Source of the DNA: Streptomyces sp. NBC_01723
Lineage (GTDB): Bacteria > Actinomycetota > Actinomycetes > Streptomycetales > Streptomycetaceae
Direction: 5' to 3'
Length of the DNA stretch: 64,000 nt
NCBI RefSeq assembly: GCF_036246005.1
Contig: NZ_CP109171.1
Location: forward strand, 5,382,001-5,446,000
Below the pieces are notes generated by a model that was given only the letters and a program-made list of their open reading frames with translations, ran no database searches and had not been told where the DNA came from. The translations under genes and the position numbers were made by a program. Shown here in pieces: positions 33,931-49,713 of this stretch (within the stretch, counting starts at the first letter, position 1; every line of letters begins with the position of its first letter).

Positions 33931-34119
33931 CTACTCGTCCTCGTCCTCGTCCTCGTCGTCCAGCCGGGCCAGCCACGTCGCCAGGCGCTCCACCGGTACC
34001 TCGAAGTCCGGGTTCAGGTCGACGAAGGTCCGCAGCTGCTCGGCCAGCCACTCGAAGGTGACCTCCTCCTCGCCGCGCCGCTTCTCCAGTTCCTCGATGC
34101 CTCGGTCGGTGAAGTACAA
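33931..34119 (-). CDS. Small conserved acidic protein (DUF6104-like)
   Basis: A 62-residue protein, conserved in Streptomyces as I recall. It reads YFTDRGIEELEKRRGEEEV, FEWLAEQLRTFVDLNPDFE and VPVERLATWLARLDDE, ending in a Glu/Asp repeat. The start is a TTG (34119) with AGGAG 6 nt upstream; longer frames lack a good site. No known function. Confidence 0.8.
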   Translation of the reverse strand: MYFTDRGIEELEKRRGEEEVTFEWLAEQLRTFVDLNPDFEVPVERLATWLARLDDEDEDEDE

Positions 34120-34316
34120 CTCATGCTCCTGATGCGGGTGGGGCGTGCCCACGGGCGTGCCCACGGCGTGTCCTTCCAGCGTAGACCGTGCGGCCGGGCC
34201 CGCCCTCCCGGTGTGGCGGCGGGGGTCGCGTGGGGCCGGACTGGGTATTAGCCTCGGGGTCAAGTGGCGGGTGTCCGCGCGCGGTTGGGGAGCGGCGGAC
34301 TCGACGGGGGAGCGAG

Positions 34317-34637
34317 ATGAGCCGCATCCAGGACGTGGAACTGCCGGACGGCACGGTGATCACCGCCCGCATCAGCGAGGCGGACGGGTACGAAGACCAG
34401 GAGGACGTCGGCTTCGCAGAGAAGGCCGTCGCCAAGGTCGAGCAGCTCCAGGAGCTGATCACCGGGGTCGGCTCCTCGGTGCTGGACGCGGCCCGCGAGG
34501 CCGGACCCAGCGAGGCCGCCATCACCTTCGGCGTGGAGCTGACCGCCAAGGAGGGGGTGGCCGTCGCGGTGCTCGCCCGGGGCGAGGCCAAGGTGTCGCT
34601 TGAGATCACGCTGACCTGGCAGTTCGACCGGGCATGA
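34317..34637 (+). CDS. Trypsin-co-occurring domain protein (TCD1/CU044_2847-like)
   Basis: A 106-residue beta-rich protein beginning MSRIQDVELPDGTVITARIS. FAEKAVAKVEQLQELITGVGSSVLDAAREAGPSEAAITFGVELTAKEG in pieces continues to LEITLTWQF. This matches the small domain family named for co-occurring with trypsin-like proteases in prokaryotic conflict systems. Its stop overlaps the protease ATG (ATGA), so the two are made together and may bind each other. First gene of the 34.3-45.5 kb block. Confidence 0.82.
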   Translation: MSRIQDVELPDGTVITARISEADGYEDQEDVGFAEKAVAKVEQLQELITGVGSSVLDAAREAGPSEAAITFGVELTAKEGVAVAVLARGEAKVSLEITLTWQFDRA

Positions 34638-36592
34638 GCGAGGGGAACGACCGCCTCTACGAACTCGCCCGCGCCGCCACCGTCCACCTGCTGCCCGCAC
34701 GGGGCGCCGACACGCCGCTGTGGGGGAGCGGCTTCTTCGTCGCGCCCGGCTGGGTGCTCACCGCCGCCCACGTGCTGCGCCCGCATCTCGCGCAGGACAC
34801 TGGCACCGTCTTCCGGGTGCGCGGCGACGGCGTCGACGCCGAGGCCCGGCTGGAGCAGTGGCTGCTCACCGACCCGCGCCGCACCCCCGTACCGCTGGAG
34901 GAGGACCTGGCCCTGGTGCGGGTGGCGGGGGAGCCCGAGGAGCAGCACCACGAGTGCGTGTGGCTCGGCGACCGCGCGGTGCGCCACTCCGGCGTCCTCA
35001 AGGTGTGCGGCTACTACCCCGGCCCGCCCGAGACCCACTTCCGGATCGTCGACGCCGAGGTCAACGGCCACGAGGACCGGCACGGACTGATCATCAAACC
35101 GGACATCGACTTCCCGTCCGGCGTCTCGGGCGGCCCGCTCCTCGACCCGGAGACCGGCGCCGTCGTCGGGCTGATCAAGTCGCGGCGCAAACAGCAGGAC
35201 GGCGGCAAGGCCGTCGCGATCTCCGCGCTGCGCCGCTTCGGACGGACGTACCGCACCGTCATGGCCGCCCACGACCGCTGGCACGGCGGCGAGCCGCAGT
35301 CCCCGGCCGGTGACAACTGGATCGACCTCCAGGGCGGCCCGCCGTCCGGCGGCGGCGAGCAGTGGACCCCCGCCGACCGCCGCGAGGCCCTGCGCCTGCT
35401 GGCCGAACTGCCCCCGCCGCCGGACGCGCCCACCGTCGAACTCCTCGCGAAGAAGGCGCGCAGCCACAACCAGTGGCCGGGCGGCACCCCCGCGCTGCTC
35501 ACCTGGCGGGACGGCGCGGGACTGCTCTACGAGGGCGCGCGCCCGCTGGAGGCGCTGACGTTCCTGCGCTATCTGCGCTACGTCGAGCTGTACACGGCCT
35601 CCCGGGGCGGCGAAGCCACCGCCCTCGGCCACTGGATCGGCGTGCGCCTGCGCCGGGAACCACGCCGGGCCATGCACGACTTCGTCCGCGACGCGCGCCT
35701 CCCCGAGGCCCTGCACCCCGCGCCCGACGGCGGGCCGGAACGCATCGTGATCCCCTATCCGGGGCCGGGCGAGGGCGGCACCGTCGCGGTCCTGCTCGAC
35801 CCCGTCATCGGCGCGCGGCCCGCCCGCTTCTTCTGGCAGATCTGGTACGACGACGGACACGGCGAGCCCGAACTCCACGAGGCCGACGGCTCCGTGCACG
35901 GGCACGACCCCGCGGCCCTGGTCCAGGCCATGCGCGGACCGCTGGGCGCGCTGCTGCGGGCCAAGGACCAGGAGGGCCGGCCGGTGCCGCTCGAAGTCGC
36001 GCTGCCGGGCGAGTACTTCGACACCGCGGTGCACCGCTGGCGCTTCGACGACATCGCCGAACTGAACGACGCCGGACATCTGGGGGCGCGCCGCCGGGTG
36101 GTCCTGCGCGCCCTCGAGCGCCGGGGAGATCCGGACAAACTCTGGTCCGAGCGCTGGCAGGCCATGGCCGCCCAGCAGGGCTTCAGCGGCTGGCGCACCG
36201 CGGCACAGGGCGACTTCCCCGGCGTACACGGCTACCGCGACGCCGCCTTCGACCGCATCCCGGTCATGTGCCGGCCGGCCGGACGCGGCCCCGGGCGCAC
36301 CGCGATGAGGCTCGCCCTGGAGGGCGGCCACGGCGTCGCGCTCTGGCACGTCGACGGCCACTCCTCGGGAGCCTGCCCCGCCTCGTGCGACACCCTGTAC
36401 GCCCGGGCGGAGGAGCTCCTCGGGACCCTCGGCTCCCTCGCCGAACTGCCGGACCTGATACGCCACGTGCGTCAGGACGTCAGCGAGCTGCGGGCCGACC
36501 GGGCCTGGGCCGAACCGGTCGCGCTCCTGTACGACGATCCGCGCCGGCCCCTGCCCTCGGAGGAGGGCGGCACCCTGGACGCCCCGCTGTGA
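34634..36592 (+). CDS. Trypsin-like serine protease with VMAP-type C-terminal region
   Basis: A 652-residue two-part protein. Residues 1-~225 form a chymotrypsin-fold protease with an intact triad: His46 in VLTAAHV, Asp91 in EEDLALVRV, Ser165 in SGVSGGPLLD. No signal peptide, so cytoplasmic. A helical middle part follows (SHNQWPGGTPALLTWRDGAG). The C-terminal ~300 residues (FFWQIWYDDG; LEVALPGEYFDTAVHRWRFD; HVRQDVSELR) resemble the C domain of vWA-MoxR-associated proteins (VMAPs). In such systems the VMAP links an effector, here a protease, to the MoxR/vWA pair. Confidence 0.85.
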   Translation: MSEGNDRLYELARAATVHLLPARGADTPLWGSGFFVAPGWVLTAAHVLRPHLAQDTGTVFRVRGDGVDAEARLEQWLLTDPRRTPVPLEEDLALVRVAGEPEEQHHECVWLGDRAVRHSGVLKVCGYYPGPPETHFRIVDAEVNGHEDRHGLIIKPDIDFPSGVSGGPLLDPETGAVVGLIKSRRKQQDGGKAVAISALRRFGRTYRTVMAAHDRWHGGEPQSPAGDNWIDLQGGPPSGGGEQWTPADRREALRLLAELPPPPDAPTVELLAKKARSHNQWPGGTPALLTWRDGAGLLYEGARPLEALTFLRYLRYVELYTASRGGEATALGHWIGVRLRREPRRAMHDFVRDARLPEALHPAPDGGPERIVIPYPGPGEGGTVAVLLDPVIGARPARFFWQIWYDDGHGEPELHEADGSVHGHDPAALVQAMRGPLGALLRAKDQEGRPVPLEVALPGEYFDTAVHRWRFDDIAELNDAGHLGARRRVVLRALERRGDPDKLWSERWQAMAAQQGFSGWRTAAQGDFPGVHGYRDAAFDRIPVMCRPAGRGPGRTAMRLALEGGHGVALWHVDGHSSGACPASCDTLYARAEELLGTLGSLAELPDLIRHVRQDVSELRADRAWAEPVALLYDDPRRPLPSEEGGTLDAPL

Positions 36593-36728
36593 GGGAGGGG
36601 GTGAACTGGCCGGAAACGGTCGTTCCAGGGAGACGCCGCGGGTACATTCACAGGGGCCCGTTGTGGGTGCGCGACGCCCTCGTCGGCCAGGCCGTGGACC
36701 ACCACCGACCGTCGACGAGGAGCACCGA

Positions 36729-37727
36729 ATGAGCGAGTGGTTCATCTACCGGGGCACCGGGCGACCGGACCCGGAGCGGATCGGGCAGCTGCCCGGCCCG
36801 CCTCCGTGGCGGGCCTTCGACACCCCGGCCGTGGACTACGACGTACCGGACCTCGGCTCCTCCACCCGGCGCCGCCTCGGCGCGCGCACCGTCCCGCTGC
36901 CCATCCAGGACCCCGGCACCCTCGAACTGGTCAACGCCGCCCTGTACCTGCGCCGCCCCCTCCTCGTCACCGGCGAACCGGGCGTCGGCAAGTCCACCCT
37001 GGCCCACTCCATCGCGTACGAACTCGGCCTCGGCCGGGTCCTGGAGTGGCCGGTCGTCAGCCGCAGCGAACTGCGCGACGGCCTCTACACGTACGACGCC
37101 ATCGGCCGCCTCCAGGACGCCCAGCTCCCGGACGGCCCCCGCTCCCCGGACATCGGCCGGTACATCAAGCTCGGGCCGCTCGGCACCGCCCTGCTCGCCG
37201 CCGACCGGCCCCGGGTGCTGCTCATCGACGAGCTGGACAAGAGCGACATCGACCTGCCCAACGACCTGCTGAACGTGCTGGAGGAAGGCGCGTTCGCCAT
37301 CCCCGAGCTGGAGCGGATCGCCGACCGGACCCCGGTCGTCGAGGTCCTCACCGCCGACGGCGGGCGGGTCGCGGTGACCGGCGGTCAGGTGGGGTGCCGG
37401 GCCTTCCCGTTCGTCGTCATGACGAGCAACCGTGAGCGCGAGTTCCCCGCCCCGCTGCTGCGCCGCTGCATCCCGCTCGACCTCAGGGCCCCGCGCGACG
37501 AGCGCCTCGCCGCCCTGGTGCAGGCCCATTTCGGCCAGGGCGCGTACGACGACAACCGCGACATCGTGGACCAGTTCACCCGCGCCGAGACGGACGGGGC
37601 GCTGCGCCCCACCGACCAACTGCTCAACGCGATCTTCCTCGCCCAGTACGCCGCCCGCGACGCCGTGCACCGGCGGGAGGAGATCTCGGATCTGCTGATG
37701 CAGCCCCTGGACCGCGGGCTGCGGTAG
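36729..37727 (+). CDS. MoxR-family AAA+ ATPase
   Basis: A 332-residue AAA+ protein. Walker A is GEPGVGKST (82-90), Walker B is VLLIDELDKS (~163-172), sensor 1 is VVMTSNRERE, and the arginine-finger region is APLLRRCIPLDL. The order is typical of MoxR proteins, which remodel substrates together with vWA partners. It lies 136 nt after the protease and 3 nt before the vWA gene. A weak promoter (TCGTTC-N17-TACATT near 36620-36647) may start a second transcript here. Confidence 0.93.
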   Translation: MSEWFIYRGTGRPDPERIGQLPGPPPWRAFDTPAVDYDVPDLGSSTRRRLGARTVPLPIQDPGTLELVNAALYLRRPLLVTGEPGVGKSTLAHSIAYELGLGRVLEWPVVSRSELRDGLYTYDAIGRLQDAQLPDGPRSPDIGRYIKLGPLGTALLAADRPRVLLIDELDKSDIDLPNDLLNVLEEGAFAIPELERIADRTPVVEVLTADGGRVAVTGGQVGCRAFPFVVMTSNREREFPAPLLRRCIPLDLRAPRDERLAALVQAHFGQGAYDDNRDIVDQFTRAETDGALRPTDQLLNAIFLAQYAARDAVHRREEISDLLMQPLDRGLR

Positions 37728-37730
37728 CCG

Positions 37731-40700
37731 ATGGCCGCCCAGGAACCCCCGCCCCCGGCCGACGGCGCGGCACCGGTGCTCGCCGCGCTGGTCGCGCGCA
37801 TGCGGGACGCGGGGATCGGGCCGGGCGTCGAGGAACTGGCGGACGCCCTGTGGCTGGCCCGCTGGCTGCCCGGCCCCGCCCGTCCGCAGGCGCCCGGCGC
37901 CCCCGTCGCGGGCCGCCGCGCCGGTGACCCGCCCGGCGGACCGGGCGCCGCGGCCCCGCCACCGGCCCCCGTCCCGCCCGCCGCGCAGGGCGGGACCACG
38001 CCCCCCGACAGCGCCTGGCTGTTCGCCCCCGGCGGCGGGGACGGCCCCGGCACCGGCGAGGGCGGCACCGGCGGCGCCCTGGCACCCGTACGGGTCCCGG
38101 CCGCGCCCGCCCTGCCCGAACCCCTCGCCCTCCAGCGCGGCCTGCGGCCCCTCCAGCGTTACCGCGCCCCCGTCCGCCCGGTCCCGCGCACCCTGGACGA
38201 GCGGGCCACCGCCGAACGGGCCGCCGAGTCCGGGCTCGTCCTGCCCGTCCTGCGCACCGACCGGCGCCGCGAGGCGCGCCTGCTGCTCCTGATGGACGTC
38301 TCGACCTCCACCGTCGTCTGGCAGCAGGCCCTCGACGAACTGCGCCAGGTCTGCGCCCGCGCCGGCGCGTTCCGGGAGCTCGCCGTGCAGTACCTGCACG
38401 AAGGACCGGGCGGCCTGCCCGGCTGCTCCTCCCGGCCGGGGACCGGCGGCCCGCTGCACGCGCCCGAGCAGCTCAGCGACCCGACGGGACGCCGCGTGAC
38501 CCTGGTGCTCAGCGACTGCGCCGGACCCATGTGGCGCAGCGGCCGCATGCAGCGCCTGCTGCACCGCTGGGCGGCGACCGCGCCCGTCGCCGTCGTCCAG
38601 CCGCTGCCGCAGCGGATGTGGGTCCGCACCCACCTCCCGGCCCGCCGCGGACTGCTGCACCGGCGCGAGGGCCCGGCCGGGGCGCTGGAGTTCCGCCCCG
38701 ACCGGGGCGGACCCGAGCGGGGCGCCCTGCCGGTGCCCGTACTGGCGCTGCGCCGGCCCTCGGTGGAGGGCTGGGCGCGGCTGGTGTCCGGCGCCACCGG
38801 GCAGTCCCTGGCCGCCGCCGCGGGCTGGGTGCGCGCCGACCACTCCGCCTCCGCCGCTCCGGTGCGCGCCGCCGAGGAACTGGGCGGGGCCGACCGGGTC
38901 CGGGCGTTCTGGCGCCCCGCCTCCCCGGAGGCCCGCCGCCTCGCCGTGTACCTGTCGGCGGTGCCGCTCTACCTGCCGGTCATGCAGCTGGTCCAGCACG
39001 CGATGCTCGCCGGGAGCGGCCCCGACGTGCTCTCCGAGGTGCTGCTCGGCGGGCTGCTGCGCCGCCGCCCGGACGCCGACGACCCGAAGGCGGTGCGGTA
39101 CGCCTTCCTGCCGGGCGTCGCCACCGAGCTGCGGACGCGGCTGACCGTCGAGGACGTGGAGCTGCTGTTCAAGCACTGCTCCGAGTACGTGGAGCGCCGC
39201 TTCGGCCGCAGCGTGCGCAACTTCCCGGCCCTGGCCGGGGCGTACCTGCGCGGCACCGTCACCCCCGGGGAGGGGCTGGCGCCCGTCACCGACCCCGGCC
39301 CGGACGAGCCCGCCGGGCTGCGCGCCTTCGCCGAGGTCTCGGCGGAGGTGCTGCGCGACCTCGGGGCGCGGATGCCGCGACCGGCCGCGGGCCCCGAGCT
39401 GAGCGTGCCGGAGCTGCTGGAGCGGGGGCGCGAGGCGCAGGCCCGCTTCGAGGCGGAGGGGCTGACCCGCGCCCTGGACGACGCGGTCGGCCACCTGCGC
39501 CGGGCGCTCGCCGCCGCGGGCCCGGGGGAGCGGCGCGTGGAGGCCGCGGAGGAACTGGCGCTGTCGCTGCTGCGCCGGTGGCAGGCGGGCGCCGACGGCG
39601 AGGACCTGCGGGAGGCCTGGGAGGCGCTGGCCGACCTGCCGGGGCTCACCGGGCGCGGGAGGTTCGTGCGGGGCACGCTCCTCTGGGACCAGGCCGTCGC
39701 GGTACGCGAGGAGGGCATCGGCTTCCCGGGGGTCGGCGACGATCTGCGGGACTGGGCCGTCGCGGCCGCGCACGACGGCCAGGACCCGGCGGAGTTCGCC
39801 CGGGCGGTCCTGTTCCTCCTCGCCGACCAGGACTTCCAAGCCGTGCTGGACACGCCCGGTGAGGACGCGGACCGGCGACACGCGAGCGCCCGGGCATTGA
39901 TGAACCTGCGCCGCCTCGTCGCGCTGGCGGGTGCGGGTCGGCATGGGCCGGACGGCCCCTATCGGGACGGCGTCGGACCGCAGGAGTGGTACCGCGCCCA
40001 CCTGTACCGAGCCCTCGACGCGGCCACCACGGCGGTCACCGTGTCCGCCTCCCACGCCACCCGCGTGGAGCGGGGCCGCCTCTGGCTCGATCTGGCGCGC
40101 CAGTTCGCCGGCCAGGGGCCGGTCCCCGCCCCGGTCGTCCAGTTGGACCTCGCGCGGGCCGCGGCCGCCTCGGCCATCGATGACCTCTATGACGGGGTGG
40201 CCCCCCAGAACCTCAAGGTCGCGCATGCCGGAGAGGACTTCCTCCCGGACGCCGAGCGCTGCCGGGCCTGGCTGGACCTGGCGTCCGCGATGGGCCTCTC
40301 CCGGATCACGAGTGAGGACGGCGGCGACCACCGCCGGCTGATCGAGGTCCTGAAGCGGGCCACCGAGGCCGCCAGGGACGACGCGGACTTGCAATTCGAG
40401 TGCCACACCCGCACCGCCCGCGTCCACCGGGACCGCTACGAACGCACCGGTGACCCCGCCCTGCTGGACCGGGCCGTGGACGCCTGGGACACGGCCGTAC
40501 GCCTGCTGCCCGAGGACGACCCCCGGCTGCCCGCGGTGCTGACCGACCACGGCACCACGCTGCACCGGCGCGGCGAGCGCCACGACGCACCCCAGGACGC
40601 GCACCGGGCCGTCGACGTGCTGCGCCGGGCCGTCGACGAGACCCACCCCGACGACCCCGAACTGCCCGCGCGCCGCCACCTGCTGGCCGCCGCCCACGTC

Positions 40701-41102
40701 GGGCGCTACCGACAGGCGCACGTGCTCTCCGACCTGTACGAGGCCGACTGGCTGCTGGGTGAGGTGGTCCGTGCCGCCGAGGAGCCGCGGTTCCTGGCGC
40801 GGTGCCTCATCCTGCGCGGCACCGTCGCCGAGTACCTGTACGACCGGCTGGGTACCGCCGGCCACCTGGACGAGGCCGTGGAGCACTACGCACGCGGTGC
40901 CGGACACGCCCGCGAGGCGGACGCCGACAGCCTCACCGCCCTGGCGCTGCGAGGCCGGGCCGGCGCCCGGGAACGCCTCGGCCGCACCCGCCCCGCCCTC
41001 GCCGACTACCGCGAGGCCCTCCGCCTGACCACGGACGTCACCCTCGCGGGGCGGCTGCGCACCGACATCGCCCGCCTCACCTCCGGAACGGCCGACGCGT
41101 GA
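37731..41102 (+). CDS. von Willebrand A domain/TPR protein (SAV_2336-like)
   Basis: A 1123-residue protein. After a ~150-residue Pro/Gly/Ala-rich N-terminal linker comes a vWA-like domain starting RLLLLMDVSTS, whose Asp189-x-Ser191-x-Ser193 is a MIDAS metal site; TLVLSDCAGPMW is the later MIDAS loop. A helical region follows (~400-560), then TPR-type repeats (about 580-1110; HTRTARVHRDRYERTG, LRGRAGARERLGRTRP). vWA proteins in these systems act with MoxR ATPases. The GTG of the next small gene overlaps its stop. Confidence 0.85.
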   Translation: MAAQEPPPPADGAAPVLAALVARMRDAGIGPGVEELADALWLARWLPGPARPQAPGAPVAGRRAGDPPGGPGAAAPPPAPVPPAAQGGTTPPDSAWLFAPGGGDGPGTGEGGTGGALAPVRVPAAPALPEPLALQRGLRPLQRYRAPVRPVPRTLDERATAERAAESGLVLPVLRTDRRREARLLLLMDVSTSTVVWQQALDELRQVCARAGAFRELAVQYLHEGPGGLPGCSSRPGTGGPLHAPEQLSDPTGRRVTLVLSDCAGPMWRSGRMQRLLHRWAATAPVAVVQPLPQRMWVRTHLPARRGLLHRREGPAGALEFRPDRGGPERGALPVPVLALRRPSVEGWARLVSGATGQSLAAAAGWVRADHSASAAPVRAAEELGGADRVRAFWRPASPEARRLAVYLSAVPLYLPVMQLVQHAMLAGSGPDVLSEVLLGGLLRRRPDADDPKAVRYAFLPGVATELRTRLTVEDVELLFKHCSEYVERRFGRSVRNFPALAGAYLRGTVTPGEGLAPVTDPGPDEPAGLRAFAEVSAEVLRDLGARMPRPAAGPELSVPELLERGREAQARFEAEGLTRALDDAVGHLRRALAAAGPGERRVEAAEELALSLLRRWQAGADGEDLREAWEALADLPGLTGRGRFVRGTLLWDQAVAVREEGIGFPGVGDDLRDWAVAAAHDGQDPAEFARAVLFLLADQDFQAVLDTPGEDADRRHASARALMNLRRLVALAGAGRHGPDGPYRDGVGPQEWYRAHLYRALDAATTAVTVSASHATRVERGRLWLDLARQFAGQGPVPAPVVQLDLARAAAASAIDDLYDGVAPQNLKVAHAGEDFLPDAERCRAWLDLASAMGLSRITSEDGGDHRRLIEVLKRATEAARDDADLQFECHTRTARVHRDRYERTGDPALLDRAVDAWDTAVRLLPEDDPRLPAVLTDHGTTLHRRGERHDAPQDAHRAVDVLRRAVDETHPDDPELPARRHLLAAAHVGRYRQAHVLSDLYEADWLLGEVVRAAEEPRFLARCLILRGTVAEYLYDRLGTAGHLDEAVEHYARGAGHAREADADSLTALALRGRAGARERLGRTRPALADYREALRLTTDVTLAGRLRTDIARLTSGTADA

Positions 41103-41251
41103 GTGACCCCACCGACGAGACGGAGATACCCCTGCCCGTCCTCCACCGCCCCGCCCGCACCGATCACCCGGTGCTCGCCGCGGTCCTCGCCGAACTCCGC
41201 GTCCGGGACGGGGAGACCACCGTCGTCGCCCACTACGAGGACGCGCCGTGA
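41099..41251 (+). CDS. 50-residue candidate RiPP precursor (FxsA position)
   Basis: A short frame from GTG 41099 (overlapping the vWA stop) to TGA at 41249-41251 (overlapping the GTG of the radical SAM gene). The peptide has an acidic start (SDPTDETEIPLPVLHRP), a helical middle (HPVLAAVLAELRVRDGE) and the tail TTVVAHYEDAP. It lacks the FxSxx C-terminus expected for FxsA peptides, but Tyr46-Glu47-Asp48 or His45 could be the aromatic residue of a three-residue cyclophane. Double overlap means co-translation with the maturase. It could instead be a small regulatory protein. Confidence 0.7.
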   Translation: MSDPTDETEIPLPVLHRPARTDHPVLAAVLAELRVRDGETTVVAHYEDAP

Positions 41252-42465
41252 CGGCCCGGCCCCGGCCGCCCGCCCACCCCGTCTGGCCGCACACCGGGCT
41301 CGACGCCACCGACCACGTCCCCACACCCCTGCGGCAGTTCGTGCTCAAGGTGCACGGCCGCTGCAACCTCGACTGCACCTACTGCTACCTCTACCGCGGC
41401 CAGGACAGCGGCTGGCGGGACCGCCCGGCCCGCACCGACGCCCGCACCATGGACCGGGCCGCCGCCCGCATCGCCGAGCACGTCCGCGCCCACGGCCTCG
41501 ACCACGTCCGGGTCGAACTGCACGGCGGCGAACCCCTGCTCACCGGCCCCGCCCCCGTCAGGGCCTACGCCCGCGCCGTCCGCCTCGCCGTCCCCGAGGG
41601 CTGCCGGGTCACCGCCACCGTGCAGACCAACGGCACCCGCCTCACCGAGCGCGCCCTGGAACAGCTCACCGAGGACGGCATCCGGGTCGGCCTCAGCCTC
41701 GACGGCGGCCGTGCCGCCCACAACGGGCGCCGGGTCGACCACGCGGGGCGGCCGGCCTGGCCCGCCGCGCTCGCCACCGCCCGCCGCCTCGCCGCGCACC
41801 CGGACGCGTACGCCGGGATCCTGTGCACCGTCGACCTGGCCGCCGACCCGCTCGACGTCTACCACTCGCTGCTCGAACTCGCCCCGCCCCGCCTCGACCT
41901 CCTCCTTCCGCACGCCAACTGGGACCGGCCGCCGCCCGGCCTGCGCGGCGGCCGACCCGGCCGGCACCGCCCCGCCCCCACGCCCTACGGCGACTGGCTC
42001 ACCACCGTCTTCGACGCCTGGTGGGACGGGGGCCGGCCGCGCACCCGCGTCCGGCTCTTCCAGGAGATCGCCGCCCTGCTGCTCGGCTCGCCCGGCGCCG
42101 CCGAGGCCGTGGGCCTGTCGCCGGTCGCCGCCGTCGTCGTCGAGACCGACGGCACCATCGAGCAGGTCGACTCGCTCAGGTCGGCCTACCGGGGCGCCGC
42201 CGAGACCGGCCTCGACGTGTTCCGGCACTCCTTCGACACGGTCCTGCGCCACCCGGGCGTCACCGCACGCCAGCTCGGCGAGCGCGCCCTCGCCGCCGAG
42301 TGCCGCGCCTGCCCGGTGGTCCGGGTGTGCGGCGGCGGCAACTACGTGCACCGGTTCGCGCCCGGCTCCGGCTTCCGCCACCCCAGCGTGTACTGCGCCG
42401 ACCTGGAGCGGCTGATCCGGCACGCCGCACACCGGCTGGAACACACCGTCCGTACCGGCGCATGA
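41248..42465 (+). CDS. Radical SAM/SPASM peptide maturase, FxsB-like (cyclophane-forming family)
   Basis: A 405-residue radical SAM enzyme. The [4Fe-4S]-SAM motif CNLDCTYC has Cys39/43/46; GGEPLL is the SAM-binding turn. The C-terminal SPASM-type cysteines are in ECRACPVVRVCGGGNYVHRF and YCADLERL, which is the FxsB pattern. FxsB-group enzymes make aromatic-to-side-chain C-C crosslinks in short peptides. There is no fused HExxH domain. Overlaps the 50-residue peptide and precedes the FxsT-like gene by 102 nt. Confidence 0.9.
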   Translation: MTARPRPPAHPVWPHTGLDATDHVPTPLRQFVLKVHGRCNLDCTYCYLYRGQDSGWRDRPARTDARTMDRAAARIAEHVRAHGLDHVRVELHGGEPLLTGPAPVRAYARAVRLAVPEGCRVTATVQTNGTRLTERALEQLTEDGIRVGLSLDGGRAAHNGRRVDHAGRPAWPAALATARRLAAHPDAYAGILCTVDLAADPLDVYHSLLELAPPRLDLLLPHANWDRPPPGLRGGRPGRHRPAPTPYGDWLTTVFDAWWDGGRPRTRVRLFQEIAALLLGSPGAAEAVGLSPVAAVVVETDGTIEQVDSLRSAYRGAAETGLDVFRHSFDTVLRHPGVTARQLGERALAAECRACPVVRVCGGGNYVHRFAPGSGFRHPSVYCADLERLIRHAAHRLEHTVRTGA

Positions 42466-42567
42466 GCGGGACGTCATGCCCAACTCCGCACGCAACAAGT
42501 CGCTTTGACGCACAATTGACTAACCTGTGCTCAGTCGTGACCAGGTTTCAGCTGAGGGGACTGCGAG

Positions 42568-45528
42568 ATGGTGACGGAGCTGGGACACGTCACGGTGGTC
42601 TTCGCCGGGCAGAGTGAATCCTGGGCCAAGTGGATCGACCACCAGGTCCGCGCCGCCGGCCGGACCGCCACCCTGGTGCGCTGGAACCCGCTGCGCCGAC
42701 CGCCGACCGCCGACGCCCTGACCGACCTGCTGGGCGCCCCCGGCCGCATCCTGCTCGTCATCGACGACTGGTACGAGCGGCTGGGCACCGAGCGGTTCGA
42801 GGCCTGGGCCGCGGTGCTCCGCGCGGTGCTGCCCGACGTCCGCGACCGCGTCGCCGCCGTGAGCGTCACCGCGCAGCCGCTGCCCGCGGAGGTCGTACCC
42901 CTCGCCCCCGTCGAACTGCGCGGCCTGCGGCCCGAGGTGGCCCGCGCCCGCGTCCTGGAATGCGCCGGCGTCCCGGCCCCCGGCCTCCTCGTCGACCTGC
43001 GCCGCGGCCCGCGCTTCCCGGACGACCCGCCCGAGGTGTGGCACGTCCCGCGCCGCAACCGCCGCTTCATCGGCCGCACCGAACTCCTGGAGCGGATGTA
43101 CGAGGCCCTCACCGGCGCCGGACACGACGGCGCCGTACTCGCGCTGCGCGGCCCCGGCGGCGTCGGCAAGACGCAGCTGGCCCTGGAGTACGCCCACCGG
43201 TTCGCGGGCGAGTACGACATCGTCTGGTGGATCACCGCCGCCCAGCGGGTCACGGCCCGCACGCAGTTCGCCGACCTGGCACCCGAACTGGGCCTCCGGG
43301 ACGCGGGCGACCTGGCCGCCACCATCAAGGCCGTACGCCGGGAACTCGACCGCACCGCCCGCCCCTGGCTGATCGTGCTGGACGGCGCGGGCGACCCGGA
43401 GAAGGTGCTCGACCTGCTGCCCGAGGGACGCGGACACGTCCTGGTCACCACGCACCGCACCGAGTGGGCGGCGCAGGGGGAGACCCTCCAGGTCCCGGTC
43501 TTCGAACGCCGGGAGAGCATCGCCTTCGTGGCCCGGCGCACCGCGCGGCTGAGCACCGACCAGGCCGACCGGCTCGCCGACGCCGTCGAGGACACGCCGC
43601 TACTGCTCGACCAGATGGCCGCCTGGCTCGACACGAACCCCGCCATGTCCGTGGACGAGTACGTGAGCGACATCCGCGACGGCAGCCCGGGCCGCTTCGG
43701 CCACATGCCCTCCCGCGACTATCCGGAGAGCTTCCAGGTCGCCTGGGCCAAGCTCCTCAACACCCTGCGCGAGGGCGCCGAACCCGCCTGGCACCTGCTC
43801 AACCTGCTGGTCTGCTTCTCCCCCGAAGTGGTCCCGGTCCGGCTGCTGCAGACCGCCCGGCACACCGACCTGCCGCCCGAGCTGGCCGAACTGGTCGCCG
43901 AGCCCAGCAGCTGGAACTCCGCCCTGCGCAAGCTCTCCGAGATCACCTCGATGCGCATCGAGTACGAACAGGGCCCGCGCCTCGACACCCAGACCGTCGG
44001 CACACTGCGCATGCACCGGCTCTTCCACCGCTACGTCCGGTACGTCCAGTCACCCGAGGACGCCGAACGCCACTTCGCGGCCGCCCGCCGGCTCCTGGTC
44101 TCCGCCGACCCCCGCGACTCCTCCGCGCCGGGCAACTGGACCCGCTACGGCGCGCTCATCCCGCACCTGGAGCCCGCCGGGGCGCTGGACTCGGCCGACG
44201 AGGACGTCCGGGACCTCGTCCTGAACTGCATCGAGTACCTGCGGATGCGCGGCGAGTACGACGACGGCCGGCGGCTGAGCCGACGGGCCGTGGAACGCTG
44301 GCGCGAGACCTCGGGCGACACCGACCGGGCCGTCCTGGTCGCCGTCCACCAGCTCGCCAACATGCAGCGCAGACTCGGCCGGTACGCGGAGGCCGAGGCA
44401 ACCGGACGCGAGACGATCCGCCGGCTGCGGGCCGCGACCGGCGTCCGCCCCATCGAGCTGATCCGCGCCAAGGACGGGCTGGGCGGCACGCTCATGGCCC
44501 TCGGCCGGTACGCGGAGGCGCGTGCCCTGTTCGAGGAGGCCGCCGGGACCGCGGCCGTCGAGCTGGGCGGCGAAGAGGTCCCGCGCACCCTCACCGTCCG
44601 CAGCAACCTCGCCATGGCCCTCGGCCTCCAGGGCCACTACACCGAGTCCCTCGCCCTGCACCGCCGGATCTTCGAGGCCCGGGTGGAACTGCTCGGCGGC
44701 AAGGACGCGCTGACGCTCAACTCGGCGCTGCGCACCGCCTGGATGCTGCGGCTGCTCGGCAACTACCGTGCGGCGCTGGAGATCCAGGGGCACAACTCCC
44801 GCCTGCACAGCCAGGTCCTCGACCGCAACCACAGCCAGACCCTGCACGCCGAACACAACCTCGCCCTGTGCTCCCGCCGGGTCGGCGACCTCCAGTTCGC
44901 CCACGCCATGATGCGGGGCGTGCGGCAGAAGCTGCTGCGCCGGCGCGGCGCCCTGCACCCCGAGTCGCTGCTGGTCTCCTGCGACTACGCGATGCTGCTG
45001 CGTCAGCTCGGGGAGACGGAGGAGGCCCGCGGCCTGGCCGAGGCCACCGCCACGCACTACGCGGCGCAGCTCGGGGAGGACCACCCGTACACCGTGGGGG
45101 CCCGGGACAACGTGGCCGTGATCATGCGCGACTCGGGCGAGACCCGGGCCGCCCTGGAACTCTCCCGGCAGTGCACCGCGCGGATGGAGAAGGCGGTGGG
45201 CCGGGACCATCCCTGGTCCGTCGGCTGTGCGAAGAACGAGGTGGCCGCGCTCGCCGGCGCCGGGGAGCGGGACGCCGCGGCCGCCGTGGGCCGGGACGCC
45301 TGCGCCCGGTCCGTCCGCGCCCTGGGCGAGAACCACGTCCTCACCGTCAGCCTCCGGGCCGGACTGGCGCTGGACCTCGCGGCGCTGGGGGAGCGCGAGG
45401 AGGCCGAGGCCCTGCGCCGGGACGTGGACACCCGGCTCACCGCTCTCTTCGGCGCGGACCATCCGCACGTCCGGCAGATCCAGGAACGGCACCACCCCTA
45501 CTGGGACTTCGAACCCCAGCCCATCTGA
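42568..45528 (+). CDS. FxsT-like protein: TIR-like domain, NB-ARC ATPase, TPR array
   Basis: A 986-residue STAND-type protein. Residues 1-~140 resemble a TIR domain (VTVVFAGQSESWAKWIDHQVRAAG), with no convincing catalytic Glu. A NB-ARC P-loop GPGGVGKTQ is at 195-203 with a Walker-B-like LIVLD at 268-272, followed by winged-helix and helical parts. The C-terminal ~450 residues are TPRs of the kinesin-light-chain kind (LGRYAEAEATGRETIRRL; LGGKDALTLNSALRTAWML). This is the architecture named FxSxx-COOH system TPR protein. STAND proteins oligomerise on sensing a trigger. ATG follows GAGGGG. Confidence 0.88.
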   Translation: MVTELGHVTVVFAGQSESWAKWIDHQVRAAGRTATLVRWNPLRRPPTADALTDLLGAPGRILLVIDDWYERLGTERFEAWAAVLRAVLPDVRDRVAAVSVTAQPLPAEVVPLAPVELRGLRPEVARARVLECAGVPAPGLLVDLRRGPRFPDDPPEVWHVPRRNRRFIGRTELLERMYEALTGAGHDGAVLALRGPGGVGKTQLALEYAHRFAGEYDIVWWITAAQRVTARTQFADLAPELGLRDAGDLAATIKAVRRELDRTARPWLIVLDGAGDPEKVLDLLPEGRGHVLVTTHRTEWAAQGETLQVPVFERRESIAFVARRTARLSTDQADRLADAVEDTPLLLDQMAAWLDTNPAMSVDEYVSDIRDGSPGRFGHMPSRDYPESFQVAWAKLLNTLREGAEPAWHLLNLLVCFSPEVVPVRLLQTARHTDLPPELAELVAEPSSWNSALRKLSEITSMRIEYEQGPRLDTQTVGTLRMHRLFHRYVRYVQSPEDAERHFAAARRLLVSADPRDSSAPGNWTRYGALIPHLEPAGALDSADEDVRDLVLNCIEYLRMRGEYDDGRRLSRRAVERWRETSGDTDRAVLVAVHQLANMQRRLGRYAEAEATGRETIRRLRAATGVRPIELIRAKDGLGGTLMALGRYAEARALFEEAAGTAAVELGGEEVPRTLTVRSNLAMALGLQGHYTESLALHRRIFEARVELLGGKDALTLNSALRTAWMLRLLGNYRAALEIQGHNSRLHSQVLDRNHSQTLHAEHNLALCSRRVGDLQFAHAMMRGVRQKLLRRRGALHPESLLVSCDYAMLLRQLGETEEARGLAEATATHYAAQLGEDHPYTVGARDNVAVIMRDSGETRAALELSRQCTARMEKAVGRDHPWSVGCAKNEVAALAGAGERDAAAAVGRDACARSVRALGENHVLTVSLRAGLALDLAALGEREEAEALRRDVDTRLTALFGADHPHVRQIQERHHPYWDFEPQPI

Positions 45529-45559
45529 CGGACGGTGCGCGGGACGACCGCGGAACGCC

Positions 45560-45595
45560 GGAGGGGCCGGCCCCGTTCCCGGGACCGGCCCCTCC
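45560..45595. terminator. Bidirectional hairpin between FxsT-like gene and kgd
   Basis: GGAGGGGCCGG and CCGGCCCCTCC, an 11-bp perfect stem with a 14-nt loop that can pair further, between convergent genes. Confidence 0.75.
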
Positions 45596-45613
45596 TGTCG
45601 CCTCCGTGTGCGA

Positions 45614-48600
45614 TCAGGCCTCGAAGACCTCACGCACCAGCTGCTCCTGCTCGGCCTGGTGCCGCTTGGCGGAACCGACGGCCGGGGACGAGCCGTGCGG
45701 GCGCGAGATGCGGCGCAGGCGCTCGCCGTGCGGGATGTCGGCGCCGACCGCCAGGTCCAGGTGGTCGATCAGGTTGAGCGCGATGAACGGCCAGGCACCC
45801 TGGTTCGCCGGCTCCTCCTGGGCCCACAGGTACTTCTCGGCATTCGGGTACTTGGCGATCTCCGCCTGGAGCTCGGCACCCGGCAGCGGGTACAGGCGCT
45901 CGATGCGGATGATGGCCGTGTCGGTCGCGCCGCGCTTCTTCCGCTCGGCGTCGAGGTCGTAGTAGACCTTGCCGGCGGTGAAGACGACCTTCTTGACGGC
46001 GGCCGGGTCGACCGAGTCGTCGCCGATGACCGGGCGGAACTGGCCCGTCGTGAACTCCTCCGCCTTCGAGGCCGCGGCCTTCAGGCGCAGCATCGACTTC
46101 GGGGTGAAGACGACCAGCGGCTTGTGGTGCGGGTTGTGCACCTGCCACCGCAGGAGGTGGAAGTAGTTCGACGGCAGGGTCGGCATCGCGACCGTCATGT
46201 TGTTCTGCGCGCAGAGCTGGAGGAACCGCTCCGGCCGGGCCGAGGAGTGGTCCGGGCCCTGGCCCTCGTAGCCGTGCGGCAGGAGGAGGGTGACGCCGGA
46301 GGTCTGGTTCCACTTCTGCTCGGCCGACGAGATGAACTCGTCCACGACCGTCTGCGCGCCGTTGACGAAGTCGCCGAACTGCGCCTCCCACATCACCAGC
46401 GCGTCGGGGCGGGCCAGCGAGTAGCCGTACTCGAAGCCCATCACCGCGTACTCGGAGAGCAGCGAGTTGTAGACGTTGTACCGGGACTGGTCCTCGGACA
46501 GGTACAGCAGCGGCGTGAACTCGTCGCCCGTCTCACGGTCGATGACGACCGCGTGGCGCTGGCCGAAGGTGCCGCGCTGCGAGTCCTGGCCGGAGAGCCG
46601 GACCGGGACGCCCTCCAGGAGCAGCGAGCCGACGGCGAGGGTCTCGCCCATGCCCCAGTCGATCGTGCCGTCCTCGACCATCGCCGCCCGGCGCTGCAGC
46701 TGCGGCAGCAGCCGCGGGTGCACGGTGACGTGGTCGGGGATGTTGACCTGGGACTCGGCGATCCGCTTGACCGTCTCGGCGCTGACCGCGGTGTTCACCG
46801 CGACCGGGAACTCGGCCTGCGGCTCCGAGGGCTCGGCGGAGGCCGGCTGGGACGCGGCCTCGCGGACCTCGGTGAAGACCTTCTCCAGCTGCCCCTGGTA
46901 GTCCTGGAGCGCCTGCTCGGCCTCTTCCAGGGTGATGTCGCCGCGACCGATGAGGGACTCGGTGTAGAGCTTGCGCACCGAGCGCTTCTTGTCGATCAGG
47001 TCGTACATCAGCGGCTGGGTGAAGGCCGGGTTGTCGGTCTCGTTGTGCCCGCGGCGGCGGTAGCAGATGAGGTCGATCACCACGTCCTTGTTGAACGCCT
47101 GGCGGAACTCGAAGGCCAGCCGCGCCACACGGACGCAGGCCTCCGGGTCGTCGCCGTTCACGTGGAAGATCGGGGCCTCGATCATGCGGGCCACGTCGGT
47201 GGCGTACATCGAGGAGCGCGAGGACTCCGGGGCGGCGGTGAAGCCGACCTGGTTGTTGATGACGACGTGGACCGTGCCGCCGGTGCGGTAGCCGCGCAGC
47301 TGCGACATGTTCAGGGTCTCGGCCACCACGCCCTGGCCCGCGAAGGCCGCGTCGCCGTGGATCGCCACCGGCAGGACGGTGAAGTCCGTGCCGCCCTTGC
47401 CGATGATGTCCTGCTTGGCGCGCGAGACGCCCTCCAGGATCGGGTCGACCGCCTCCAGGTGCGAGGGGTTGGCGACCAGCGAGACCTTGATCTGCTCGCC
47501 GTCCAGGCCGGTGAAGGTGCCCTCGGCGCCCAGGTGGTACTTCACGTCGCCGGAGCCGTGCATCGACTTCGGGTCGAGGTTGCCCTCGAACTCGCGGAAG
47601 ATCTGCGCGTACGACTTGCCGACGACGTTGGCCAGCACGTTCAGCCGGCCGCGGTGGGCCATGCCGACGACGACCTCGTCCAGGCGCGACTCGGCCGCCG
47701 AGTCGATGACCGCGTCGAGCAGCGGGATGACGGACTCGCCGCCCTCCAGGGAGAAGCGCTTCTGGCCGACGTACTTCGTCTGCAGGAAGGTCTCGAAGGC
47801 CTCCGCCGCGTTCAGCCGGCGCAGGATGCGCAGCTGCTCCTCGCGCTCCGGCTTGGTGTGCGAGCGCTCGATGCGGTCCTGGATCCACTTGCGCTGCTTC
47901 GGGTCCTGGATGTGCATGAACTCGACGCCGGTGGTGCGGCAGTACGAGTCGCGCAGCACGCCGAGGATGTCGCGCAGCTTCATCAGGGACTTGCCCGCGA
48001 AGCCGCCGACCGCGAACTCGCGCTCCAGGTCCCACAGGGTGAGCCCGTGCTCGGTGATGTCCAGGTCGGGGTGCTTGCGCTGCTGGTACTCCAGCGGGTC
48101 GGTGTCGGCCATGACGTGGCCGCGGACCCGGTAGGAGTGGATCAGCTCGAAGACGCGGGCGGCCTTGGTGACGTCGTCGTCGTGGCTGGCGTCGATGTCC
48201 TTGAGCCAGCGGACCGGCTCGTAGGGGATGCGCAGCGCCTTGAAGATCTCGTCGTAGAAGCCGTTCTCGCCGAGGAGCAGGTTGGCGACCTGGCGCAGGA
48301 ACTCGCCGGAGGCGGCGCCCTGGATGACCCGGTGGTCGTAGGTCGACGTGAGCGTCATGACCTTCGAGATGCCGAGCTTGTTCAGGGTGTCCTGGCTGGT
48401 GCCCTGGAACTCCGCGGGGTAGTCCATGGAGCCGACGCCCATGATGACCGACTGGCCGGGCATCAGGCGCGGCACCGAGTGGACGGTGCCGAGGCCGCCG
48501 GGGTTGGTCAGGGAGACCGTGACGCCGGAGAAGTCGTCCATCGTCAGCTTGCCGTCGCGGGCGCGGCGGACGATGTCCTCGTAGGCCTGCCAGAACTCGA

Positions 48601-49432
48601 AGAAGTTCAGCGTCTCGGCCTTCTTGATCGCCGCGACGACCAGCTGGCGGTCGCCGTTGGGCTTGACCAGGTCGATGGCGAGGCCGAGGTTGACGTGCGC
48701 GGGCTTGACGAGGGTCGGCTTGCCGTCCTTCTCGCCGAACGCGTAGTTCATCGTCGGCATGGCCTTGATGGCCTGCACCATCGCGTAGCCGATGAGGTGC
48801 GTGAAGGAGATCTTCCCGCCCCGGGCGCGCTTGAGGTGGTTGTTGATGACGATGCGGTTGTCGAACAGCAGCTTCACCGGGACGGCGCGCACGGACGTGG
48901 CCGTGGGCAGCTCCAGCGAGGCGTTCATGTTCTTCGCGACCGCGGCGGCCGGGCCGCGCAGGGTCACCAGCTCGGGGCCCTCGGGGGCCGCGGCGGCGTC
49001 CTTCGAGGAGGCGGCGGAGGCGGCGGGCGCGGCCGCCTTCGCCTGCGGCTGGGCCGCGGGCTTCGCCGGCGCGGCGGCGGGCTTGGCGGCCGGAGCCGCG
49101 GCGGCGGGCTTCGCGGGGGCGGCCGGCTGGGCGGGCGCCTTCGGCTGGGCCGGGGCGGGAGCCTGCGCCTGTGGTGCGGGGGCGGCCTGTGGCGCGCTGC
49201 CGGAGTCCGTGGCCGCGGCCGCGGGGGCGGCGGCCTGGGCCGCGGGCGCCCCGGGCTTGTAGTCGGCGAAGAAGTCCCACCAGGCTCGGTCCACGGAATT
49301 CGGGTCCTGGAGGTACTGCTGATAGATCTCGTCAACGAGCCACTCGTTGGCACCGAACGCGGCAGCGGGGTTCTTGCCCGCTTGGTCGGTGTCGGTCGAG
49401 ATGCTCGAGTTACTGGGGGACTGTGGCGACAC
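45614..49432 (-). CDS. kgd: Multifunctional 2-oxoglutarate decarboxylase/dehydrogenase (Kgd)
   Basis: A 1272-residue actinobacterial KGD. Order: an E1 N-terminal piece ([18 protein letters not shown]), an Ala/Pro linker (~55-130), an E2-like acyltransferase domain ([21 protein letters not shown] in pieces; [18 protein letters not shown], where the canonical HxxxD is HRVIQ), and the ThDP-binding E1 part ([41 protein letters not shown] in pieces). No lipoyl domain. It converts 2-oxoglutarate to succinyl-CoA within the PDH-like supercomplex and is inhibited by GarA/OdhI-type FHA proteins in relatives. GTG 49432 gives the MSPQSPSN start I recall for orthologues. Confidence 0.94.
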
Positions 49433-49713
49433 GGCGAGAACCGCCCTCTTCCGCTTCACAAGATGGTGGACAGCGGGAATCAAGGCTACGCCTTGCCGAC
49501 CCCGAAGGTCAGGCCGGGCCCGTTCATCGTCGCGTAAGTCACATTGCAGACGGTGTTTCGGCGCTGGAAATGGCGGGAAACAAGCGAGGTTCTGCTGCAC
49601 GTGGGAAGAGCGGAGCGGGACCCGGCGCCGGGAAAACGCGGGCCTGTCCCTGATCACACGTGTCCGCCAGGGCGGATGCTCGTGGATCTTGAAGCTCCGC
49701 TTCGAACCCTACG

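Follow-up and report, generated by a model that had tools for sequence, protein, structure and literature searches.

What does a run of seven adjacent genes, which joins the parts of a protease-based conflict system to those of a peptide-modification module, represent in Streptomyces sp. NBC_01723, and do these genes act as one unit? The window considered here is the whole stretch of 64,000 nucleotides (nt) of this 8.85-Mb genome (positions 5382001–5446000 of contig NZ_CP109171.1), and the seven genes lie on its + strand at 34317–45528. A preliminary description of the same DNA had placed them there, and both their existence and their positions were confirmed (Table 1). The results indicated that the block makes up a predicted VMAP-type ternary conflict system in complete form, whose peptide module is of the Tyr-x-Asp kind, and that it is one of several alternative cassettes that are exchanged as a block next to kgd. 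The preliminary description had taken the parts to be known separately; however, a unit with the same “toxin or signal” idea was published in 2020 (Kaur et al., 2020; PMC7159879, in the sections used here). The combination is therefore already known as a predicted system, and what was not found in the literature used here is the genetics of swapping at a fixed site.

Table 1. Coordinates of the seven genes, of two promoter-like elements and of the surrounding site in the window (aa, amino acids).
Feature	Position	Strand	Evidence
Trypsin-co-occurring domain 1 protein (Trypco1), 106 aa	34317..34637	+	PF19493 2.2e-17; NF041216 5e-20
Trypsin-like protease fused to VMAP-C, 652 aa	34634..36592	+	PF13365 (Trypsin_2) 2.3e-15; PF20028 8.4e-34, above cut-off
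MoxR-type AAA ATPase, 332 aa	36729..37727	+	PF00004, PF07728 above cut-off
vWA (MIDAS DVSTS...D) with helical/TPR tail, 1123 aa	37731..41102	+	SAV_2336 N-terminal domain NF041121 7.6e-134
50-aa precursor peptide, tail HYEDAP, GTG start	41099..41251	+	NF041709 5.8e-10, 39 bits, below 55-bit cut-off
FxsB-family radical SAM/SPASM maturase, 405 aa, putative cyclophane-forming	41248..42465	+	TIGR04269 429.9 bits (cut-off 370)
FxsT: TIR/SEFIR-like N-terminus, NB-ARC, TPR, 986 aa	42568..45528	+	NF040586 (FxSxx_TPR) 795 bits (cut-off 300); NB-ARC 4.4e-9; TPR_12 1.9e-35
GGGTAC, candidate SigB-like -10 element upstream of MoxR	36640..36645	+	GGGTA[CT] in 18/18 aligned class A loci (window included)
TTGACGCACAATTGA block upstream of FxsT	42505..42519	+	exact in 13/18 class A loci
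Exchangeable cassette between small DUF6104-like gene (presumed) and kgd	34119..45599		DNA similarity to four empty sites
Left flank, small gene	33931..34118	-	in 148/150 genomes
Right flank, kgd, multifunctional 2-oxoglutarate dehydrogenase	45614..49657	-	NF008907 2113 bits

In an attempt to define the site, we compared the window with 150 Streptomyces genomes. The cassette lies between kgd and a small gene that we take to be DUF6104-like and at which NCBIfam names nothing; the C-terminal part of kgd was found in 149 of the 150 genomes, and both flanks were on one contig in 135. Similarity between the window and four empty sites ended at 34118 in all four comparisons and restarted at 45600, 45611, 45614, and 45614, so the cassette is about 11.5 kb long, with its edges at the two neighboring genes. 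The distance between the flanks was bimodal in the 135 genomes: < 1 kb in 57, 1–5 kb in 13, 5–8 kb in 4, and 10–26 kb in 61. In G097 and G104, which belong to the 57 with < 1 kb, a cassette lies just outside this interval, beyond the small gene. Most cassette genes were found at this site: 51 of the 59 FxsB matches with ≥ 57% identity were within 27 kb of a flank (6 elsewhere on the contig and 2 on other contigs), as were 65 of the 74 MoxR matches with ≥ 58% identity (3 elsewhere on the contig and 6 on other contigs). Most of the cassette relatives that carry a name belong to Streptomyces. The same flanks surround a cassette in another genus, in Actinacidiphila glaucinigra (L028), and some genomes (e.g., G016, G020, G063, G080, G111, and G146) have the small flank gene in inverted orientation with respect to kgd. 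Nothing on the kgd site was found in the open-licence PubMed Central (PMC) literature, a scope to which the figures and supplements of Kaur et al. (2020) do not belong.

We classified the cassettes in the window and in 80 further regions (all sites > 1 kb, G097, G104, and G076; the regions of G034 and G118 were limited to 20 kb, that of G118 without its left end). Class A, with FxsB but no HExxH gene, comprised 17 regions, including the window. Class B, with both FxsB and HExxH, comprised 27, and its peptides mostly contain Phe-x-Ser/Asn; 8 of these regions had no match to trypsin-co-occurring domain 1 (TCD1), 2 had none to TCD1, trypsin, or VMAP-C, and 2 had none to any VMAP, MoxR, or vWA. 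Class C, with HExxH but no FxsB, comprised 19, and class D, without a maturase, 5 (G017, G068, G079, G094, and the remnant G007). The rest were four short sites with an HExxH-profile match only, and eight short sites and G076 with none. The HExxH-only sites, of about 2 kb (L142, L169, L183, and L188 in G012, G046, G074, and G083), may be what is left of a lost cassette, or hydroxylases that stand alone. The HExxH gene of L040 matches TIGR04267 (8.8e-49), a family now named “aKG-HExxH-type peptide beta-hydroxylase” in NCBIfam.

The classes also differ in the form of the NB-ARC protein. A full FxsT (NB-ARC ≥ 520 bits) occurred in all 63 class A–C regions, where the maturase lies beside the NB-ARC gene, and in none of the four MoxR-bearing class D sites. 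In three of these four (G017, L147; G068, L181; and G079, L186), a shorter NB-ARC (76–108 bits) lies within the vWA reading frame, in G017 and G079 together with a TIR-like stretch, and G094 has neither FxsT nor an NB-ARC fusion. FxsT thus goes with peptide tailoring: the tailoring enzyme and a separate NB-ARC protein come and go together. The fusion of vWA to NB-ARC where there is no maturase argues for joint action of vWA and FxsT, with the peptide as the bridge in cassettes that encode the two separately; vWA–AP-ATPase fusions have been reported for other peptide types (Kaur et al., 2020). The peptide/NLR half (NLR, NOD-like receptor) can stand alone, because L144 (G014) and L200 (G109) have FxsB, HExxH, and FxsT at this site and no match to VMAP, MoxR, or vWA.

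The gene neighborhoods of FxsB bear directly on whether the block is a single unit, as the preliminary description had held. A scan of the genome contigs gave 79 FxsB loci, from the best 80 of 455 matches, to which the window was added. Of the 69 loci (window included) with ≥ 7.5 kb upstream, 30 carried all five upstream domains (TCD1, trypsin, VMAP-C, MoxR, and vWA) and FxsT, one (L040) had all but VMAP-C, and 38, mostly outside this FxsB clade, had none of the five; one of these 38, L026, is cut by a contig end. The 11 loci with less room comprised one with all five, four with vWA only, and six with none. FxsB was present in 97 of the 150 Streptomyces genomes. Among the FxsB matches with ≥ 57% identity, at least 43 of 59 had a MoxR gene upstream on the same strand (at 4.4–5.6 kb, with two at 9.4 kb), and among the lower-identity matches this was so in at least 1 of 26, the 26 being taken from a longer list. 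When six regions around an FxsB without a listed MoxR were inspected, MoxR was found in four (G039, G042, G101, and G134) and was absent from the other two (G109 and the second G068 locus); G071 also has a MoxR. Adjacency is therefore the rule in this FxsB clade, which upholds the single-unit reading, and the proteins of the left and right halves share their history (Spearman coefficient of MoxR and NB-ARC distances, 0.87). Some departures were also seen in this survey: two FxsB genes about 4.6–4.7 kb apart with FxsT between them, i.e., tandem peptide–maturase units, in L026, L135, and L136, and an FxsB in two pieces in L137, by decay or sequencing error. The window genome has three MoxR matches, and one of its regions (L129, G000:C1:2484000-2503000) holds a second, divergent MoxR/vWA set, with a MoxR 52% identical, weak Trypco1 and trypsin matches, and no FxsB.

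Phylogenetic trees were used to follow the cassettes and their surroundings. In the trees of MoxR (65 sites) and NB-ARC (65 rows), which contain some long branches, above all G007 and G068, the four classes needed 4 changes each, against a minimum of 3. As an unlinked marker, we used gyrB, taken as the best match to the gyrase-B family (PF00204), in 80 genomes, of which 66 were occupied and 14 empty; the empty ones were a manual choice, most of them close to the window in kgd identity. Here, the five labels needed 32 changes (minimum 4; mean of shuffled labels 44.7), and none of 200 shuffles was as low as 32, so some clustering by kinship remains. In a set of 60 genomes of classes A–C with gyrB, MoxR, vWA, and NB-ARC, drawn from 68 by leaving out the five of class D, G014 and G109 (no MoxR), and G048 (no gyrB match), the classes changed 21 times on gyrB, 18 times on the 400 nt of adjacent kgd (59 rows), and twice each on MoxR, vWA, and NB-ARC. 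The Spearman coefficient of pairwise distances was 0.74 between gyrB and kgd, which argues that the gyrB rows, not singly checked, are orthologous. It was 0.43–0.90 among the cassette proteins, and -0.01 to 0.19 between these and gyrB or kgd (MoxR and NB-ARC against gyrB, 0.15 and 0.08). The sister genomes G118 (class B) and G136 (class C) differ by 2.0% in gyrB and 3.7% in kgd, and by 32% in MoxR; many other close genome pairs share a class. Judged from these trees, inheritance and exchange both act on the cassette as a single block, whose history is largely independent of that of its flanks, and simple vertical inheritance was rejected because of the label changes on gyrB and kgd, despite the residual clustering on gyrB.

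We also compared the rates at which the parts diverge. The median difference in 39 close same-class pairs was 0.22 for the vWA-TPR tail, 0.21 for VMAP-C, 0.19 for vWA, 0.15 for trypsin, 0.14 for HExxH, 0.13 for FxsB, 0.10 for Trypco1, 0.09 for TIR, 0.08 for MoxR, and 0.07 for NB-ARC. This ranking agrees with the fast evolution of vWA and VMAP stated by Kaur et al. (2020), and its high divergence suits vWA as a sensor. In ternary systems diversified by diversity-generating retroelements (DGRs), vWA has likewise been suggested to be the sensor that varies in a VMAP system, as described in part of a published account (PMC10907252), but the variation there comes from retroelements, and profile searches matched none of the seven window proteins to a retroelement; integrase families gave no match either.

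The proteins themselves were compared with two known frames. As in VMAP ternary systems, the protease ends in VMAP-C, and the genes follow the order VMAP–MoxR–vWA, a layout that the relatives share. The MoxR protein contains WFIYRG and PPWRAF (by eye), which fit the motifs WxhapG and PsWRxa of MoxR proteins in VMAP systems (Kaur et al., 2020). The N-terminus of the vWA protein, EELAD followed by L at the aromatic place, is a near-match by eye to [D/E]xxx[D/E]xxxa, the N-terminal vWA motif of VMAP ternary systems, and the TPR matches in its tail were all below the cut-off. The two partners of an FxSxx system, FxsB and FxsT, are present as well. In the protease, H46, D91, and S165 were invariant among 43 aligned sequences, and a His-Asp-Ser triad was readable in 46 of 49 protease matches, the profile match of the other three not permitting a reading. 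The metal ion-dependent adhesion site (MIDAS) of vWA, DxSxS..D, was intact in 33 of 39 FxsB loci and imperfect in six. Of the 11 loci without FxsB, six had an intact site, and in all four class C loci examined it was degenerate (D-x-G-x-A). The N-terminus of FxsT gave profile matches, mainly in its first half, to the TRR-2 TIR domain (2.4e-4) and to SEFIR domains (0.016), and its TIR_2 score was 26, below the cut-off of 28. The solved structure nearest to FxsB is the radical SAM domain of ChlB (9gm3, 2e-72), to which it is homologous along its length; we take the whole ChlB protein to be fused to an HExxH domain, whereas the window has neither such a half nor such a gene. Since it has no HExxH gene, the trypsin–VMAP protein is the only protease of the window among the recognized families.

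The peptide ends in VVAHYEDAP, with Tyr-x-Asp at Y46-E-D48 of its 50 residues, beside the FxsB-type maturase. The preliminary description had referred the peptide module to the FxSxx system; an FxSxx identity of the peptide is ruled out by the tail HYEDAP, and there was no FxSxx match at E ≤ 1 and no listed TIGR04268 match. By its sequence it is a predicted peptide of the YxD cyclophane kind and is probably crosslinked, although it did not reach the curated cut-off of the YxD-tail model NF041709. The YxD triceptides and their enzyme YxdB were reportedly described by Sugiyama in 2022 (JACS). According to part of a review, YxdB makes a C3(Tyr)-Cbeta(Asp) bond (PMC11002830); the window resembles that system in having Tyr-x-Asp beside an FxsB-like maturase and differs from it in that its crosslink is a predicted one.

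The tail was compared at two depths. Among 20 loci with an FxsB ≥ 75% identical to that of the window, YEDAP ended all 17 readable peptides; of the remaining three, L076 is cut, L077 is masked, and the reading frame of L015 is broken (L015:3504-4010, by decay or sequencing error), with YEDAP in another frame. In a set of 20 peptides picked by their Y.DAP ending (window included), every one has an aligned Arg ahead of the tail; owing to this choice, the constancy of the tail in the set is partly by construction, and the claim of constancy rests on the 17 readable loci. In the wider class A, the tails vary (YDDGP, YEDGP, YFDNEP, YFENGP, and YGDSAP), and Tyr-x-Asp was present by eye in 15 of 16 readable tails, the other being Tyr-x-Glu, with one site masked. 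At the third tail place, class B had Asp in none of 25 peptides (Ser 13, Asn 7, Ala 2, Gln 2, and Glu 1, by eye). The precursors of class C often have Trp-containing tails: in L139, L145, L153, L164, and other class C sites, HExxH without FxsB lies beside tails such as SWPEDAF and EFWAEG, and we regard these sites as a hydroxylase-only peptide class. A related leader, LPDL..DL..LR.., recurs in classes A and B and in many of class C. Classes A–D represent few lineages, so the association of tail and class does not amount to many independent observations. The suggestion that the peptide tail itself serves self-recognition is disfavored, since YEDAP is fixed in close loci while the vWA-TPR tail and VMAP-C vary most. 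However, the tail does vary across the wider class, and a recognition role stays open because the locus has multiple classes.

Four of the six gene junctions bear out the tight spacing given in the preliminary description: the genes of Trypco1 and trypsin–VMAP-C, of vWA-TPR and the peptide, and of the peptide and fxsB overlap by 4 nt, and MoxR and vWA lie 3 nt apart. The other two are true gaps, of 136 nt before MoxR and 102 nt before fxsT, and both contain promoter-like elements. GGGTA[CT] is a -10 type of Streptomyces SigB-like factors, as stated in part of the source (PMC8346170); in the window, the -35 candidate, GTTC, departs from GNNT. In the site survey, GGGTA[CT] occurred before MoxR in 12 of 17 class A regions, nine with the full motif (expectation from mononucleotide shuffles 1.5 and 0.2), and in 0/25 of class B, 3/19 of class C, and 1/4 of class D. 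The controls before other genes were TCD1 10/55 (one full), trypsin 3/63 (one full), vWA 1/65, FxsB 1/42, HExxH 2/44, and TIR 3/63 (none full). The idea that a SigB-like promoter characterizes the entire family was rejected in view of these counts. The block upstream of FxsT, TTGACGCACAATTGA, had one or two mismatches in 4 more of the 18 aligned loci and was not found in L020; in the site survey, it occurred in 6 of 17 class A regions and in none of 48 of classes B, C, and D. Given these blocks, MoxR-to-fxsB and fxsT may have their own transcription starts.

Kaur et al. (2020; PMC7159879) assigned a peptide module to about 20% of actinobacterial VMAP systems, in which FxSxx peptides come with an added SPASM radical-SAM gene, a TPR-only vWA, and a downstream TIR–AP-ATPase–TPR gene, and proposed the peptide as a toxin or signal. 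The window shares with that unit the core gene order, the trypsin–VMAP with Trypco, the TPR-only vWA tail, the peptide, the SPASM radical SAM, and the separate downstream TIR–AP-ATPase–TPR protein. The differences are that its peptide is YxD and not of the FxSxx, RxD, acidic, or FtsH type, and that a “zincin-like MPTase,” to which they assigned precursor cleavage, is part of the core of their module, whereas the window has no HExxH gene. Furthermore, the exchange of cassettes at a fixed site found here does not appear in their section 24 or in the first parts of their sections 9 and 35.

The reading that we tentatively favor, at somewhat under even confidence, is that of a predicted intracellular suicide system triggered by invaders, in which the peptide links the vWA complex to the NB-ARC protein. 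The fast-evolving vWA-TPR protein, or VMAP, would recognize an intracellular cue of invasion. ATP hydrolysis by MoxR would then remodel the vWA–VMAP complex and license the trypsin-like protease, with Trypco1 as an adaptor. FxsB would join Tyr and Asp in the YED tail of the 50-aa precursor, which would stay cytoplasmic, and the modified tail would link the ternary complex to FxsT. Cleavage of the precursor, for which the conserved Arg is a possible site, or of some other partner would change the ligand state of FxsT, which would assemble through its TIR/SEFIR-like domain and stop or kill the hypha, thereby limiting spread. The exchange of whole cassettes would reflect selection for changed invader specificity. 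This reading is supported by the family and motif matches, the catalytic triad, the co-occurrence of FxsT with tailoring, the vWA–NB-ARC fusions, and the inheritance as a block, and also by the divergence ranking, the lack of a transporter-family match among the seven proteins in profile searches, the peptide Arg, the acid in the protease S1 site, and the SigB-like -10 element.

Several observations weigh against it. PADLOC gave no convincing match for the block, and the cassette is dispensable, since in many species the site has none. The position corresponding to trypsin 189 is Asp or Glu in 31 of 38 FxsB-bearing loci (an alignment to factor XII, a weak 1.4-bit segment anchored on GxSGGP, puts an acid there), but an acid is also found there in 6 of the 11 loci that lack FxsB, and the peptide Arg is retained where this position is R, G, or Y. 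With no covariation, the pairing of the S1 acid with the peptide Arg, and hence a matching of protease and peptide, is suggestive only. In an alignment of 52 TIR-like sequences, no Glu was invariant or ≥ 90% conserved, so the TIR-like domain of FxsT is probably a scaffold, and an NADase activity is unlikely.

The same data can be read in other ways. The locus could serve allorecognition: the classes and vWA variants would be alternative alleles that cause incompatibility between hyphae that fuse or mate, and the NB-ARC protein would be the executioner, as at fungal het loci. Such a role would suit the exchange of whole cassettes of several classes at one site while the flanks follow the species, the NLR-type protein, and the fast-evolving vWA tail, and Kaur et al. 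(2020) draw a parallel with the NACHT proteins of fungal hetero-incompatibility (PMC7159879). We consider it unlikely in view of the 57 sites of < 1 kb, 55 of them with no cassette beside them, and of the constancy of the peptide tail among close relatives. Invader-triggered suicide and allorecognition nevertheless remain close readings; both would predict changeable alleles. Quite unlikely, in our judgment, is that the peptide acts on the ternary complex and not on FxsT, its Asp coordinating the metal of the vWA MIDAS so as to prime or inhibit the complex. The intact MIDAS of most FxsB loci, the nearly constant tail Asp of class A, and the co-inheritance of MoxR with peptide class are consistent with it; the intact sites without FxsB, the degenerate ones of class C, and the six imperfect ones beside FxsB are not, and the presence of tailoring enzymes follows that of a separate FxsT more closely than it follows MIDAS state. 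These counts weaken the candidacy of the peptide as sole MIDAS ligand.

That the peptide is an exported signal or antibiotic, i.e., a ribosomally synthesized and post-translationally modified peptide (RiPP), with the other genes for regulation or immunity, we hold to be very unlikely. FxsB-family peptides are indeed RiPP precursors, and Streptomyces regulators such as AfsR share the NB-ARC-TPR layout, as given in part of the source (PMC10936776). However, the missing transporter match, the absence of a signal peptide on the precursor by eye, and the occurrence of the related leader type with HExxH alone argue against export. The notion that two unrelated systems merely lie side by side is scarcely tenable: FxsB–FxsT units without VMAP genes do exist (G014 and G109), as do the FxsB loci, mostly outside the clade, that lack all five upstream domains, but chance adjacency was rejected on account of the conserved order, the translational overlaps, the shared history, and the shared site.

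There is also a broader proposal, which we regard as doubtful: the kgd site would be a multi-allelic recognition or immunity locus of Streptomyces. Its cassettes would be self-contained: each would combine a cytoplasmic peptide of its own chemistry, with a Tyr-x-Asp, Phe-x-Ser/Asn, or hydroxylase-only tail, with an NLR-type protein and a MoxR–vWA–protease switch that match this peptide. The peptide would replace the covalent vWA–NB-ARC link of the maturase-free alleles, and recombination within the housekeeping genes on either side would carry whole alleles from one species to another. No demonstrated function was found in the literature used here for VMAP ternary systems or FxsB-type cyclophane peptides, and no tests of the system were found in the open-licence PMC literature. 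A single site at which related species have either nothing or one of several interchangeable cassettes provides a natural allele-swap set, in which a cassette can be inserted, deleted, or exchanged in place with its neighbors undisturbed, and function is thus testable. Phage range, hyphal compatibility, and peptide chemistry are possible readouts of such swaps, and joint occurrence shows which parts to test together, namely the tailoring enzyme and the separate NB-ARC protein. If the kgd locus is indeed multi-allelic in this sense, it would be a bacterial equivalent of the het loci of fungi or the R-gene loci of plants.

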